Assembly (NCBI GenBank): GCA_021793675.1
Contig: JAJYSG010000014.1
Coordinates: forward strand, 1-42,833
Reading direction: 5' to 3'
Source of the DNA: Actinomycetes bacterium
GTDB lineage: Bacteria > Actinomycetota > Actinomycetes > Actinomycetales > Cellulomonadaceae
Length of the DNA: 42,833 nt
The notes beneath the pieces were generated by a model. The model was not told the origin of the DNA. It saw only the letters and a program-made list of their open reading frames with translations, and made no database searches. Below, one piece after another: positions 28,709 through 32,337 of this stretch (position 1 is its first letter; each line of letters begins with the position of its first letter). A program made the position numbers and the translations under genes.

Positions 28709-29344
28709 ATGCGCCTGCACGTCGCGGATCACCCCCTGGTCACCCACAAGCTCACCATCCTGCGCGACACGAAGACGCCGTCGCCGACGTTCCGCCAGCT
28801 CGTCGACGAGCTGGTGACGCTGCTGGCCTACGAGGCCACGCGCGACGTCGCCACCCACCCGGTGGAGATCGAGACGCCGGTCGCCAGGACCACCGGCCGC
28901 AAGCTGGCCGACCCGGCGCCGATCGTCATCCCGATCCTGCGCGCCGGCCTCGGCATGCTCGAGGGCATGACCCGCCTGCTGCCCACCGCGGAGGTCGGCT
29001 TCCTCGGGCTGAAGCGTGACGAGGAGACCCTCGAGGCCGTCACCTACGCCAACCGGCTCCCGGACGACCTCACCGGCCGGCAGGTGTTCATCCTCGACCC
29101 GATGCTCGCCACCGGCGGAACCCTCGTCGCGGCCATGCAGTACGTCTTCGAACGCGGCGCCCGGGACGTCACCGCGGTGTGCCTCATCGCGGCCCCCGAG
29201 GGCCTGAAGACCGTCGAGGCGTACGTGGGCGAGCGCGCCGACGTCCAGGTGGTGGTCGCGGCGCTCGACGAGCGGCTCAACGAGAAGGCGTACATCGTGC
29301 CGGGCCTCGGCGACGCGGGCGACCGCCTCTACGGCATCGTCTGA
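28709..29344 (+). CDS. upp: Uracil phosphoribosyltransferase
   Basis: 211 residues, the usual length. N-terminal [42 protein letters not shown] is the UPRT opening. [14 protein letters not shown] is the flexible-loop region, [15 protein letters not shown] the PRPP loop, and [26 protein letters not shown] the uracil-binding C-terminus. Reaction: uracil + PRPP to UMP + PPi, in the cytoplasm. It works with the uracil permease at 23065-24390. The transcript is probably leaderless. Confidence 0.97.
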
Positions 29345-29435: not shown

Positions 29436-31463
29436 TCAGCCTTGCCGGGCTGCCGCCGGGTCGCCGTGCGGCCAGCACGCCCGGTCCCACCGCGGGATCC
29501 CGTCCCACCAGTGCCACCCGTCGCACCCGGCGGTCGGGGTCGGCGTGGGGGTCGGGGTCACCGTGGGCGTGGGCGTGGGGGTCGGCGTGGGCTTCACCGT
29601 CGGCGTCGACGTGGGTTCCGGGCTCGGCGTCGCGGTGGGCGTCGAGGTCGCCGTCGCGGTGGCCGTGGCCGTGGCCGTGGCGGGCGGCGTAGCGGTGGGC
29701 GTGGCGGCCGGCGTCGAGGACGGGACGGTGGTCGCGGGCGTGGTGTCCGCCGACCACGGCAGGATCGTCACCCGACCGGGGTGGCTGATCGCGTGACGCA
29801 GACCGTCCGCACTGACCTGCCACGTCACGCCACCGGTCGCGAACTCCTGCGCCACGCCGACCTGGACGCCCACGTGCGTCACCTGCCCCACGTCCAGCAC
29901 GGGGAGCGTGCACCGCACGCCGGTGCCGGCCGCGACGCAGCTCCACGCCCCGCCGAGGTGCACCGCGTAGTGGCCCGTCACCTGCTCGGCGACCTGTTCG
30001 GGGGTCACCCCGGCGGGCAGGTCGAGCTGGACGACGAGGTTCGTCACCGGGGCGGCGCCGGCGTTGGTCAGGTCGATGCCGAGGTCCTGCCCCGTACGGC
30101 CCGCGGTCAGCACCACGCCCGGGTCGCCGACGACGAGGTTGGGGGTCGCGGCCGCCGGGTCCGTGGTGGACGAGCTGGACGTGCCGCCGCCCGCGACGGT
30201 CGCCGACACGTCACCGGCACCACCGGTCGGTACGTCCGCGCCTCCCGTGGCCACCCCGCTCGGCGTCGCGGCGGGCATCGGGGCCAGCGGCAGGCCGACG
30301 ACGTCGTCGGCCGCGGCGACCGGCAGGGCGGCCGGGCTGGGCGTGCTGCCCGTGCCGGCCGACAAGGGGGAGCCGTGGCCGCCGCTCAGTGCGACGGCGC
30401 CGACGGTGATGCCCGCGACGACGACGATGCCGGCCACGCCCGCGACCAGAGCCGCCGGCACCGTCCCGAGGAAGGCGCCGATCGCGGCCAGCACGCCGCT
30501 GGTGGTCGTCCCGCCCGCCGCCACCACGCCCGCCGCACCGGCGGCGCCTGCAGCGCCGGCACCCGTGCCGCCAGCCGCGGTACCCACGGCAGCGCCTCCG
30601 GCAGCCGTGCCGCCGGACGTCAGCGTCGCGGCGCCGGCTGCCAGTCCCCCGCTCGTCGGCAGCCCGAGCCCGAGCGCCCCGAGCCCGGCCGCGCCGAGCA
30701 CGAGCGGCGCGATGATCGCCCGCAGGCCGTGGTTGACGTCACGCAGCTCCAGCACCAGGGCCCGGCAGTCGCCACAGGTCTCCAGGTGCCCCTCGACCAG
30801 GGCGGTGTCCCGCGCGCCGAGGCCGGCGCGCACGTATCCGCCCAGCTTGCCGGCGACCGAGCGACACGCGTCCGGCAGCTGGTCGGACAGGTGCATCTGC
30901 AGGTATGCCTGCCGCAGCCCTTCCCGCGCGCGGTAGGCCAGCGCGGCGGTGCTGTTGGCGGTCAGGCCCAGCAGCGGTCCGATCTCGGCGGGCGAGCGCC
31001 CTTCGATCTCGCTGTGCCACAGCACCGCCTGCCACCGCTCGGGCAGGCTCGCGAACGCGCGCGCGACGAGGGAGCGCTCGAACCCCGCAAGCGCCGGCTC
31101 CTCGGCCGCGGCGACCGGGATGGCGCCGGACTCCAGCACCGCGACGTCGTCGGTCGGATCTGCCCGGCGACCGCGCTCCCGCTGGACGGCGGCGGTGCGG
31201 CGCACCACGGTGAACAGGTAGGCGCGGAACGCGTCCGTGGGGCCGGAGCCGCCGCGCAGCGCCCCCCACACGGCCGCGAACGCGTCGGAGACCGCGTCCT
31301 CGGCCTCGGCAGTCCCGGACGTGTACCGCCGGGCGACGATCAGCGCCGCGCCGGCATGCCGTTCGTACAGCGCTCCGAAGGCCGTCGCGTCACCGGAACG
31401 CGCCGCACTGATGAGGTCGGCATCGGACCGCAACTCGGTGCCTGTGCCACGACTGGGTTCCAC
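29436..31463 (-). CDS. ECF sigma factor fused to zinc anti-sigma, membrane and extracellular parts
   Basis: 675 residues from GTG 31463 (GGAGG 5 nt upstream); the frame is open further upstream, without a ribosome site. Order: sigma region 2 (about 14-95), region 4 (128-190, SLPERWQAVLWHSEIEGRSPAEIG), then the anti-sigma zinc motif H226-x3-C230-x2-C233. An Ala/Gly-rich stretch with one weak (250-268) and one strong TM (328-360) follows. The extracellular part has a beta-rich domain (440-570, PGVVLTAGRTGQDLGIDLTNAGAAPVTNLVVQLDLP). Then comes a Pro-Thr linker (576-645) and a Trp-rich tail with two Cys. Fused ECF/anti-sigma proteins of this plan are known (ECF52/53-like groups), some with carbohydrate-binding ends. 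It probably senses an external, perhaps glycan, signal and releases the sigma part. Confidence 0.85.
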   Translation of the reverse strand: MEPSRGTGTELRSDADLISAARSGDATAFGALYERHAGAALIVARRYTSGTAEAEDAVSDAFAAVWGALRGGSGPTDAFRAYLFTVVRRTAAVQRERGRRADPTDDVAVLESGAIPVAAAEEPALAGFERSLVARAFASLPERWQAVLWHSEIEGRSPAEIGPLLGLTANSTAALAYRAREGLRQAYLQMHLSDQLPDACRSVAGKLGGYVRAGLGARDTALVEGHLETCGDCRALVLELRDVNHGLRAIIAPLVLGAAGLGALGLGLPTSGGLAAGAATLTSGGTAAGGAAVGTAAGGTGAGAAGAAGAAGVVAAGGTTTSGVLAAIGAFLGTVPAALVAGVAGIVVVAGITVGAVALSGGHGSPLSAGTGSTPSPAALPVAAADDVVGLPLAPMPAATPSGVATGGADVPTGGAGDVSATVAGGGTSSSSTTDPAAATPNLVVGDPGVVLTAGRTGQDLGIDLTNAGAAPVTNLVVQLDLPAGVTPEQVAEQVTGHYAVHLGGAWSCVAAGTGVRCTLPVLDVGQVTHVGVQVGVAQEFATGGVTWQVSADGLRHAISHPGRVTILPWSADTTPATTVPSSTPAATPTATPPATATATATATATSTPTATPSPEPTSTPTVKPTPTPTPTPTVTPTPTPTPTAGCDGWHWWDGIPRWDRACWPHGDPAAARQG
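29531..29740 (-). repeat. Pro-Thr / Ala-Thr codon repeat inside the sigma-fusion gene
   Basis: Short 6-nt units (GGCGTG, GGGGTC, GCCGTG types on the plus strand) alternate for about 210 bp. They encode TPTPTP and ATATAT runs, the extracellular linker. It is coding sequence, prone to slippage. Confidence 0.85.
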
Positions 31464-31511: not shown

Positions 31512-31557
31512 CTCCGCAAGGGTGAATCGGCGAGAACCGGCGTCACCCTGAGTCCGA

Positions 31558-32337
31558 ATGCCGCTCTCATTCCACGTGACGACCGACATGCGCCCCGGGT
31601 CCCCGCTGCCCGAGGGCCTGCGCGACCGGTGGCGGGCCAGCAGCGTCGAGTCCATCTGGCTACGGCCGTCGGACTGGTACCACCCTGCGGTGGACGTCCT
31701 GGTCGAGGCCGTGCTGCGGGACGCCGACCCGTGCGCCGCGGCGGAGGACCTCGGCCGCGCCCGCGGCCACGACGGCGTCGGGATCATGGAGACGCTCGAC
31801 GACCTCGCCTGCCTGTACCGCACGGCCGGAGTGGTCACCCCGCCGCTCGACGCGATCCGCGCCCTGTCCGGCGGCTGGGCCGACGGCTCGTCGGCCGGTG
31901 TCGGCTCCTCGGCGGCGTTCGACCCGGAGACCGGGCTGCCGACCCGCTCCTACCTGGAGCTGCGGCTGCGGGAGAGCTACGACGCGCACGAGGACGCGAC
32001 GCACCGGCTCGTCGTGGTCGACGTCGCCGCCGGCGAGGTGTCGGGGTTCCTGCGGGCCGCCCGCTCGGCCGCCACCGGCGCGGCGCTGGCCGGCGCGTTC
32101 GGCGCCGGGCACCCGATGGCCACGCTCGGCGGCGGGATGTTCGCGGCGCTGATCCGCCCCGGAGACGACCTCGAGCGGGGGCTCGCGCTGCTGCGGGCCG
32201 AGCTCGCGGCGCGGTGCGCGGACGTCGAGGTGCGCGCCACCACCCGCCAGCCGGTGCGCGCGTGGGCGGAGCCGCTGCCGGCGACGTACGACGGCGCGCT
32301 GCGGCTGCTGGCGCGGCTGGCCCGCGTCGACCGCTGA
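31558..32337 (+). CDS. Degenerate GGDEF-like protein
   Basis: 259 residues from ATG 31558; ATG 31588 is an alternative start. Residues 1-105 are helical and unrecognised. FDPETGLPTRSYLELRL (121-137) is the DxLTGLpNR motif that opens diguanylate cyclase domains, and TLGGGMFAALI (189-199) falls where GGDEF should be. The acidic catalytic residues are missing, and the domain is short. It cannot be expected to make cyclic di-GMP; a binding or structural role is more likely. It is divergent from the sigma fusion, and the kinase-like gene follows 127 bp downstream. Confidence 0.65.
   Translation: MPLSFHVTTDMRPGSPLPEGLRDRWRASSVESIWLRPSDWYHPAVDVLVEAVLRDADPCAAAEDLGRARGHDGVGIMETLDDLACLYRTAGVVTPPLDAIRALSGGWADGSSAGVGSSAAFDPETGLPTRSYLELRLRESYDAHEDATHRLVVVDVAAGEVSGFLRAARSAATGAALAGAFGAGHPMATLGGGMFAALIRPGDDLERGLALLRAELAARCADVEVRATTRQPVRAWAEPLPATYDGALRLLARLARVDR

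Follow-up and report, generated by a model that had tools for sequence, protein, structure and literature searches.

In a 42,833-nucleotide stretch of Cellulomonadaceae DNA (hereafter the window; contig JAJYSG010000014.1, from a 1.87 Mb genome bin, 62% complete), we characterised a gene encoding, in one 675-residue chain, an extracytoplasmic function (ECF) sigma factor, a zinc anti-sigma (ZAS) domain, a predicted membrane segment, an immunoglobulin (Ig)-like outer domain, a Pro-Thr stalk and a small tip rich in Trp and Cys. Judging from its sequence, the protein belongs to a known class, the ECF52/53-like sigma/anti-sigma fusions of Actinobacteria; its unusual part is the minimal, lineage-specific tip. 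Drawing on the anatomy of the protein, its homology, the conservation of the tip in two species and the lineage-specific ends of its relatives, we propose, with a probability of about 0.6, that the fusion is a one-component envelope sensor whose tip binds a ligand outside the cell and whose sigma factor is released by proteolysis. Beside it lies a divergent gene for a GGDEF-fold protein with a degenerate active site, which in our judgement deserves no less interest than the tip.

The switching-on of a sigma factor covalently joined to its own inhibitor is an unsettled question. The tip offers a minimal candidate sensing part that could be deleted or swapped, and the divergent neighbour of the fusion gene, present at 73 of the 80 homologous loci, is a candidate second component. 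If tips set specificity, they would offer an easy means of redirecting a one-component transcription sensor; tip and neighbour alike can be put to a direct test in relatives from Cellulomonas or Amycolatopsis that grow in culture.

Architecture of the fusion protein

The features of the fusion gene, from the start of the protein to its end, are the following.

29436..31463, minus strand: whole fused sigma/anti-sigma/sensor protein, 675 residues, an open frame with a GTG start and a terminal stop codon
31188..31370, minus strand: Sigma-70 region 2, residues 32-92 (Pfam PF04542, Sigma70_r2, E 1.7e-10)
30921..31067, minus strand: Sigma-70 region 4, residues 133-181 (Pfam PF08281, Sigma70_r4_2, E 3.4e-5)
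30762..30866, minus strand: ZAS (zf-HC2) domain, residues 200-234 (Pfam PF13490, E 5e-6, above cut-off)
30660..30728, minus strand: first hydrophobic stretch, residues 246-268 (hydropathy 1.4-1.9), prolonging the last anti-sigma helix
30384..30455, minus strand: main predicted transmembrane segment, about residues 337-360 (hydropathy up to 2.5)
29796..30161, minus strand: Ig-like (DUF11-type) outer domain, residues 435-556, with Cys509 and Cys518 (our own profile, sub-threshold Pfam DUF11 and structure model)
29529..29747, minus strand: Pro-Thr stalk, about residues 573-645 (defined from sequence; model confidence under 50)
29463..29525, minus strand: Trp/Cys tip, residues 647-667, Cys647 to Cys663, conserved in a second genome

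An earlier note on this DNA had described sigma regions 2 and 4, a zinc motif, a transmembrane segment, an outer domain, a stalk and a tail in one 675-residue frame, naming no strand; frame analysis, Pfam and hydropathy bear this anatomy out and assign the frame to the minus strand. Evidence for the two ECF sigma regions comes from PF04542 and from TIGR02937, which spans residues 28-186 (E 1.2e-17); the PF08281 match falls slightly under its cut-off (23.8 bits vs 25.7). Downstream in the same chain comes the zinc anti-sigma motif, C200-x25-H226-x3-C230-x2-C233. These four zinc ligands, as well as the outer-domain cysteines C509 and C518, are invariant across 59 aligned sequences, i.e. the window and 58 homologues selected because they contain the Ig domain (of 74 closed homologues, the 16 lacking it were left out of the alignment, and also of the structure prediction input).

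The outer domain, placed by the earlier note at residues 440-570 and proposed there for profile and structure searches, is Ig-like and of DUF11 type. A hidden Markov model (HMM) built for it, with the window in its training set, matches the window and 58 of the 74 homologues in one to four copies each, and the Pfam DUF11 match (residues 463-539) remains below cut-off, whether the whole protein (E 0.063) or the outer domain alone (E 0.0036) is scanned. A further sub-threshold match concerns NPCBM_assoc (E 0.0081), a family different from NPCBM. Pfam gave no carbohydrate-binding module (CBM) family match in the tail, the stalk or the Ig domain.

The AlphaFold model of the fusion has a mean predicted local distance difference test score (pLDDT) of 66.1 and a predicted template modelling score (pTM) of 0.34. 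Confidence is high for the sigma and ZAS helices and, outside a loop near 492-502, for the Ig domain (pLDDT about 89-96), and low for the Gly/Ala region, the stalk and the tip. Foldseek matched the sigma/ZAS part to chains from sigma/anti-sigma complexes (SigW-RsiW, sigmaE-RseA and BldN-RsbN), and the Ig domain to Ig-like domains of integrins, an adhesin and a cohesin and to the CBM2 of Cellulomonas fimi (6qfs, E 2.3e-4), a predicted likeness that is one of fold only, with no family match.

Composition and conservation of the tip

Beyond the stalk, which is present as previously noted with a length of about 73 rather than 70 residues, the last 31 residues do contain five Trp and two Cys. Taking the pooled composition of 75 family proteins as baseline, Poisson probabilities for this enrichment are 5e-5 (Trp) and 0.04 (Cys), figures that are post hoc, the tail having been chosen for that make-up. 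Its compact conserved portion covers residues 652-667, with the core WW-x-G-x-PRWDR-x-CWPHG.

The closest relative found, G049, comes from a separate assembly and is 88% identical over residues 2-270. Its homologue (locus L153) counts 653 residues from the matched start, has the same order of parts, and ends CSAASTSTPWWAGTPRWDRTCWPHG... In the tip core, 13 of 16 positions are identical between the window and G049, with four Trp and both Cys kept; stalk length and the final residues have diverged. Nei-Gojobori ratios of nonsynonymous to synonymous substitution (dN/dS) between the two were 0.15 for sigma, 0.20 for ZAS, 0.51 for Ig, 0.48 for the stalk and 0.19 for residues 652-668, this last value being based on 17 codons of a single species pair (Fisher p = 0.038), for which reason selective constraint on the tip core is probable rather than firm. 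The core of the tail is thus kept in this close homologue, a point on which its earlier description had depended. A broken or chimeric frame within the Pro-Thr repeat, which would have left the tail untranslated, was rejected: the same stalk and tip core occur in the separate G049 assembly, and the G+C content of the tail by codon position (0.74/0.74/0.94 for positions 1/2/3) is coding-like. A PDZ-type C-terminal signal was also rejected for the window, the sequence beyond the core not being shared by the two species.

No known domain was recognised in the tail, in agreement with the earlier note: stalk and tail together, or tail alone, gave no Pfam match at E up to 10 save one at chance level (8.7). 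The possibilities of a CBM1/CBM10-like module or a CBM2 remnant likewise found no Pfam match. Recurrence of the tail on cellulases or cell-wall proteins, a check proposed in the earlier note, was not borne out: in 221 family genomes, from each of which up to 33 candidates were scored, the only strong matches to a profile built from the two tails lay in the window's genome and G049. Six weaker matches (L214-L219, E 0.002-0.01) were dismissed for having neither a stalk nor the two-Cys core; one of them, L218, reads RWQRTCWP within a 34-residue frame. With the window tail alone as query against 81 genus genomes, the next match after these two genomes came at E 0.011 (throughout our counts, "genus" is the genus of the window, taken as Cellulomonas, to which the best named homologues belong). 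On this evidence the tip appears private to a small clade. Among the best-ranked papers of a literature search, none dealt with the Trp/Cys tip.

C-terminal ends of the homologues

What relatives carry at the same end differs widely. Among the genus orthologues, 54 loci were taken, of which 52 are complete; the ends of 41 fit a DUF3344-like sequence pattern and four more do so by eye (L170, L185, L187 and L188), one, L153, carries the tip, and the remaining six (L155, L156, L180, L191, L201 and L205) have other ends, in a tally that omits L154 (open end) and L196 (run of N). Seven further genus orthologues, on contig ends, lie outside the 54-locus set. The DUF3344 match itself is sub-threshold (L006, E 4.4e-4). 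Each of the six complete proteins from named Cellulomonas that contain Ig domains has four Ig repeats.

Farther afield, the homologues of Isoptericola, Oerskovia and Luteimicrobium are long, with a weak CBM5/12 match in L018 (E 0.0038, below cut-off), and two other modules were identified with confidence: an NPCBM end in L237 (genome G238, E 1.1e-28) and a ricin-B lectin end in L242 (E 3.6e-11), both in proteins that sit in a tree group other than the window's. We examined short ends in 69 proteins of at least 500 residues (seven of 76 were omitted as shorter, and six of 80 loci with open ends had been omitted earlier). In 32 of the 69, a Pro/Thr/Ser stalk reaches the last 45 residues; these are the window, G049, one Demequina and 29 Pseudonocardiaceae. 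Within those 45 residues, exactly two Cys occur in 12 proteins (the window, G049 and ten Pseudonocardiaceae), none in 20 and a single one in none, the 12 falling in about six lineages and hence not being independent. Under five alternative thresholds the two-Cys proteins numbered 12 each time and the one-Cys proteins 0-2, and of the 37 proteins outside the stalk rule, nine carry a single Cys in the last 45 residues and two carry two. This two-or-none parity is the best evidence suggesting that the two Cys of the window pair, and a Cys647-Cys663 disulfide probably closes the tip.

Such tips are recognisable within a lineage, as in L026/L032/L057 ([VI]ERLLAVLTG[RQ]C) or in Actinokineospora L042, L044, L045 and L048 (CL[EQ]IG...C), and are not recognisably alike between lineages; other short ends are aromatic (GFGWLTG, WDWVPWLG, RWLLGG). 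The best reading of this pattern is that the ends of the fusion are interchangeable between lineages. A different role is conceivable too: the tip might serve for docking or anchoring, its counterpart being, for instance, a protease, a wall-linked protein or the Ig domain itself, and the signal would be mechanical or one of envelope damage. Short ends that differ wholly between lineages suit co-evolving protein partners as well as glycans, and no convincing copy of the tip was found on other proteins of the 221 family genomes. The lectin-type domains at the same end in some relatives argue against such a role, as do the several conserved Trp, which suit sugar binding, and we hold docking to be possible but rather unlikely.

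The tip might alternatively be what remains, now decaying, of a larger end domain that was lost, or a tail that stays open by chance after such a loss. The existence of orthologues with neither tip nor recognisable DUF3344-like end (L155/L156) is consistent with this, and so is the divergence of the residues outside the core between the window and G049. Against decay stand the core identity, its low dN/dS and its retained Trp and Cys, despite the change in stalk length, together with the (post hoc) Trp enrichment; moreover, tblastn with the DUF3344-type end of L157 found no significant trace in or beside the window gene (best E 0.09) or the G049 gene, and the tip was accordingly rejected as a remnant of a DUF3344-like end. 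We regard this explanation as improbable. In L155 and L156 themselves, no DUF3344-like remnant was seen in the downstream frames, and the sole tblastn matches under E 1 with that query (0.005-0.008) lie inside their own coding frame. The roughly 600 bases between the fusion gene and upp in these two loci hold an unassigned opposite-strand open frame, alike in both species.

In the homologue from Cellulomonas timonensis (L017, 5001-6335), the Pro-rich arm runs into the peptide SYTHLTLPTI..., which we take to be typical sequencing-adapter read-through and thus probably an assembly artefact rather than a natural end. In Cellulomonas marina (L012), some hundreds of residues of Ala/Gly/Thr repeats separate the anti-sigma part from the membrane segment, a Gly/Ala stretch far longer than in the other relatives compared.

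Proposed mechanism

In the envelope sensor that we favour, the ECF sigma domain (about residues 14-190) would be kept inactive by the ZAS domain of the same chain (about residues 200-250), itself tied to the membrane. Outside, a single Ig-like domain and the stalk would carry the small, Trp-rich, disulfide-closed tip in the place occupied by the larger DUF3344-like end in most other Cellulomonas orthologues. There the tip may bind a ligand beyond the membrane, be it a glycan, from the cell wall or the environment, or a surface protein. When the tip (or the Ig domain) makes contact, regulated proteolysis close to the membrane and within it would set the cytoplasmic part free, and, once ZAS is removed or opened, the sigma domain would direct transcription of its regulon. 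If degradation were of the ClpXP type described for RsgI (PMC12203970), it would have to stop before the sigma domain.

This reading is supported by the recognised domains and invariant zinc ligands, the confident model of the sigma, ZAS and Ig parts with its Foldseek matches, and the tip core shared with G049. The other modules at the end of relatives (NPCBM and ricin-B, with CBM5/12 and DUF3344 below cut-off) and the apparently Cys-paired short tips of ten Pseudonocardiaceae proteins are also consistent with a swappable sensing end. For the earlier note's idea that the tail may be a glycan or cell-wall probe, the NPCBM, ricin-B and, weakly, CBM5/12 ends of some relatives give indirect support.

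Several observations weigh against it, in addition to the narrow base of the core dN/dS. The tip is known from two species only and has no family match in Pfam; its Cys spacing shifts from C-x15-C in the window to C-x19-C in G049, and dN/dS rises to 0.82 for residues 646-668, i.e. when the variable residues before the core are included. The sister clade L155/L156 has neither tip nor recognisable DUF3344-like end, its proteins ending after the second Ig domain, so that a short end is evidently tolerated, and the 20 of 32 stalk-and-short-end homologues without terminal Cys indicate that a disulfide tip is not general. Topology is a further point. Hydropathy predicts two hydrophobic stretches, at about residues 246-268 and 320-365, the second being the stronger; if both crossed the membrane the tip would be cytoplasmic, and a disulfide would therefore not be expected. 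In the model, a helix at residues 231-267 runs from the anti-sigma part through the first stretch, whose insertion into the membrane is uncertain.

A divergent neighbour with a degenerate GGDEF domain

Upstream of the fusion gene, two features were delineated.

31558..32337, plus strand: GGDEF-fold protein with a degenerate active site, 259 residues, divergent from the fusion gene (an ATG at 31588 may be its actual start codon)
31541..31581, no strand: inverted repeat CGTCAC-N29-GTGACG, between the two divergent genes

Pfam reports GGDEF in the neighbour at 0.23 only, whereas its model is confident (pLDDT 89.8) and all Foldseek matches at E <= 0.001 are GGDEF structures (four, best 8.5e-5). 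The active-site motif reads LGGGMFA in the window, where no active diguanylate cyclase signature was found, and the GGDEF/GGEEF signature is conserved neither in 74 neighbour rows (window included, a few rows cut short) nor in a set of 48 sequences. On these sequence grounds the protein is catalytically dead or degenerate.

At 73 of 80 homologous loci the fusion has this gene as its divergent neighbour; these loci span Cellulomonadaceae, Demequinaceae, Promicromonosporaceae, Pseudonocardiaceae, Nocardiopsidaceae and Kribbella, and the gene is missing in L059, L065, L067, L069, L072, L073 and L076. Many additional genus loci carry too little upstream DNA for absence to count. In a class sample, tblastn with the window protein at 1e-5, by which distant copies could be missed, found it in 3 of 20 loci (L246, L247 and L249), with no match beside the eight NPCBM-type loci, both ricin-type loci, or L241, L244, L245, L248 and L250-L252.

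This neighbourhood makes the dead-GGDEF protein a candidate functional partner. By binding sigma or ZAS, it could act as an anti-anti-sigma factor or as a second lock; release would then not be (only) proteolytic, and cytoplasmic and outside inputs would be combined. A precedent exists in Streptomyces, where RmdB, through its GGDEF domain, binds sigma-WhiG and bars the anti-sigma factor RsiG from it (PMC13232838). Given the retained fold, the lost signature and this precedent, we treat such a role as a serious rival, or addition, to the envelope sensor, while judging it unlikely: the case is one of gene neighbourhood, the gene could be a target gene or persist through a shared promoter region, and it is absent at seven of the 80 loci and sparse in the class sample. 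A composite two-gene switch, in which swapped stalk tips would set sensing while the dead-GGDEF protein, bound to sigma/ZAS, frees or holds sigma without its destruction, appears to us more doubtful still. Among the best-ranked papers of our literature search, none described a dead-GGDEF partner of fused ECF sigma factors.

The inverted repeat, with a spacing of 28-29 bases, recurs in nine Cellulomonas-type upstream regions, including those of the window and G049. Overall it was found in 11 of 79 upstream regions, some from near-identical species, against a shuffled mean of 0.17, and it is possibly a shared operator or a paired promoter element. GGAAC occurs in 17 of the 79 regions, and no clear autoregulation motif emerged from them.

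Comparison with known sigma/anti-sigma systems

SigI and RsgI, sigma and anti-sigma factor, are two separate proteins, whereas the window has a single chain whose sigma domain must survive the final degradation. In Clostridium thermocellum, RsgI is a substrate-sensing membrane anti-sigma factor whose membrane helix is cut by RseP before ClpXP acts (PMC12203970). Closer in design is IutY (ECF243) of Pseudomonas, a sigma factor fused to a membrane anti-sigma factor and activated by Prc and RseP, presented in a 2022 review as the sole experimentally characterised fused sigma/anti-sigma protein (PMC8999054); it works as we propose for the window fusion, but is a cell-surface signalling protein responding to aerobactin.

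An actinobacterial counterpart is SCO4117 (ECF52) of Streptomyces coelicolor, which like the window protein unites an ECF sigma factor, a zinc-finger anti-sigma domain, a membrane segment and a proline-rich arm in one chain (PMC5826349). ECF52 is reported there solely from Actinobacteria, with its carbohydrate-binding end proposed as the sensor; the effects on a strain left with the sigma domain alone were milder than those of the full deletion, and a protease was proposed to release that domain (PMC5826349, PMC8999054). The two proteins differ at the end, where ECF52 carries NPCBM and the window fusion an Ig-like domain, Pro-Thr stalk and Trp/Cys tip, and in their neighbours, atrA in one case and the divergent dead-GGDEF gene in the other. 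No C-terminal NPCBM (smart00776) follows the proline-rich region of the window protein, and a Pfam scan of the full-length sequence (E up to 1) found none elsewhere in it. ECF53 and ECF48 fusions, compared by description only, share the C-terminal zinc-finger anti-sigma domain and have one to two membrane helices; unlike some of them, predicted to carry glycosyl hydrolase or carbohydrate-binding domains, the window fusion has no recognised catalytic or carbohydrate-binding domain (PMC8999054, PMC10766802). For ECF48, ECF52 and ECF53, activation by proteolytic release is expected in the same review (PMC8999054).

Distribution and phylogeny

Using the N-terminal 271 residues as query, 66 of 81 genus genomes matched at E <= 1e-40 and 103 of 296 class-sample genomes at E <= 1e-25, the window's included in both counts. 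Among the 66, 62 matches are strong (E <= 2.9e-100); five weaker genus rows (43-46% identity) represent paralogues, four of them being the sole match of their genome.

In the sigma/ZAS tree, inferred by a quick method that warned of some long branches meeting and from which L073 and 45 of 59 genus loci were left out, the window and G049 form one group (support 100) inside a 13-row group (97) that includes DUF3344-type proteins. The short tip is probably derived, since its group is nested among these proteins; the tree itself does not give the direction of change. Eight NPCBM-type rows, grouped by similar ends with one of them (L237) scanned with Pfam, fall together (99) within a group of 16 rows (95); the window lies in a different group, of 44 rows (97). 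These NPCBM-ended homologues stood in for SCO4117. The kinship with ECF52/53-type fusions claimed in the earlier note is supported, with the window placed outside the NPCBM-ended group.

Downstream of the fusion gene, one gene served as a synteny marker and lies outside the sigma/sensor system.

28709..29344, plus strand: upp (uracil phosphoribosyltransferase), convergent, 91 bp from the stop codon of the tip

The upp gene adjoining the tip-bearing gene in G049 is 98% identical, and upp, tadA and sir2 adjoin the homologue in several loci. Five genus paralogues (L207-L211, 42-43% identity) are shorter fused sigma/anti-sigma proteins with a different outer part, and L207 and L210, the two included in the tree, fall outside the orthologue clade.

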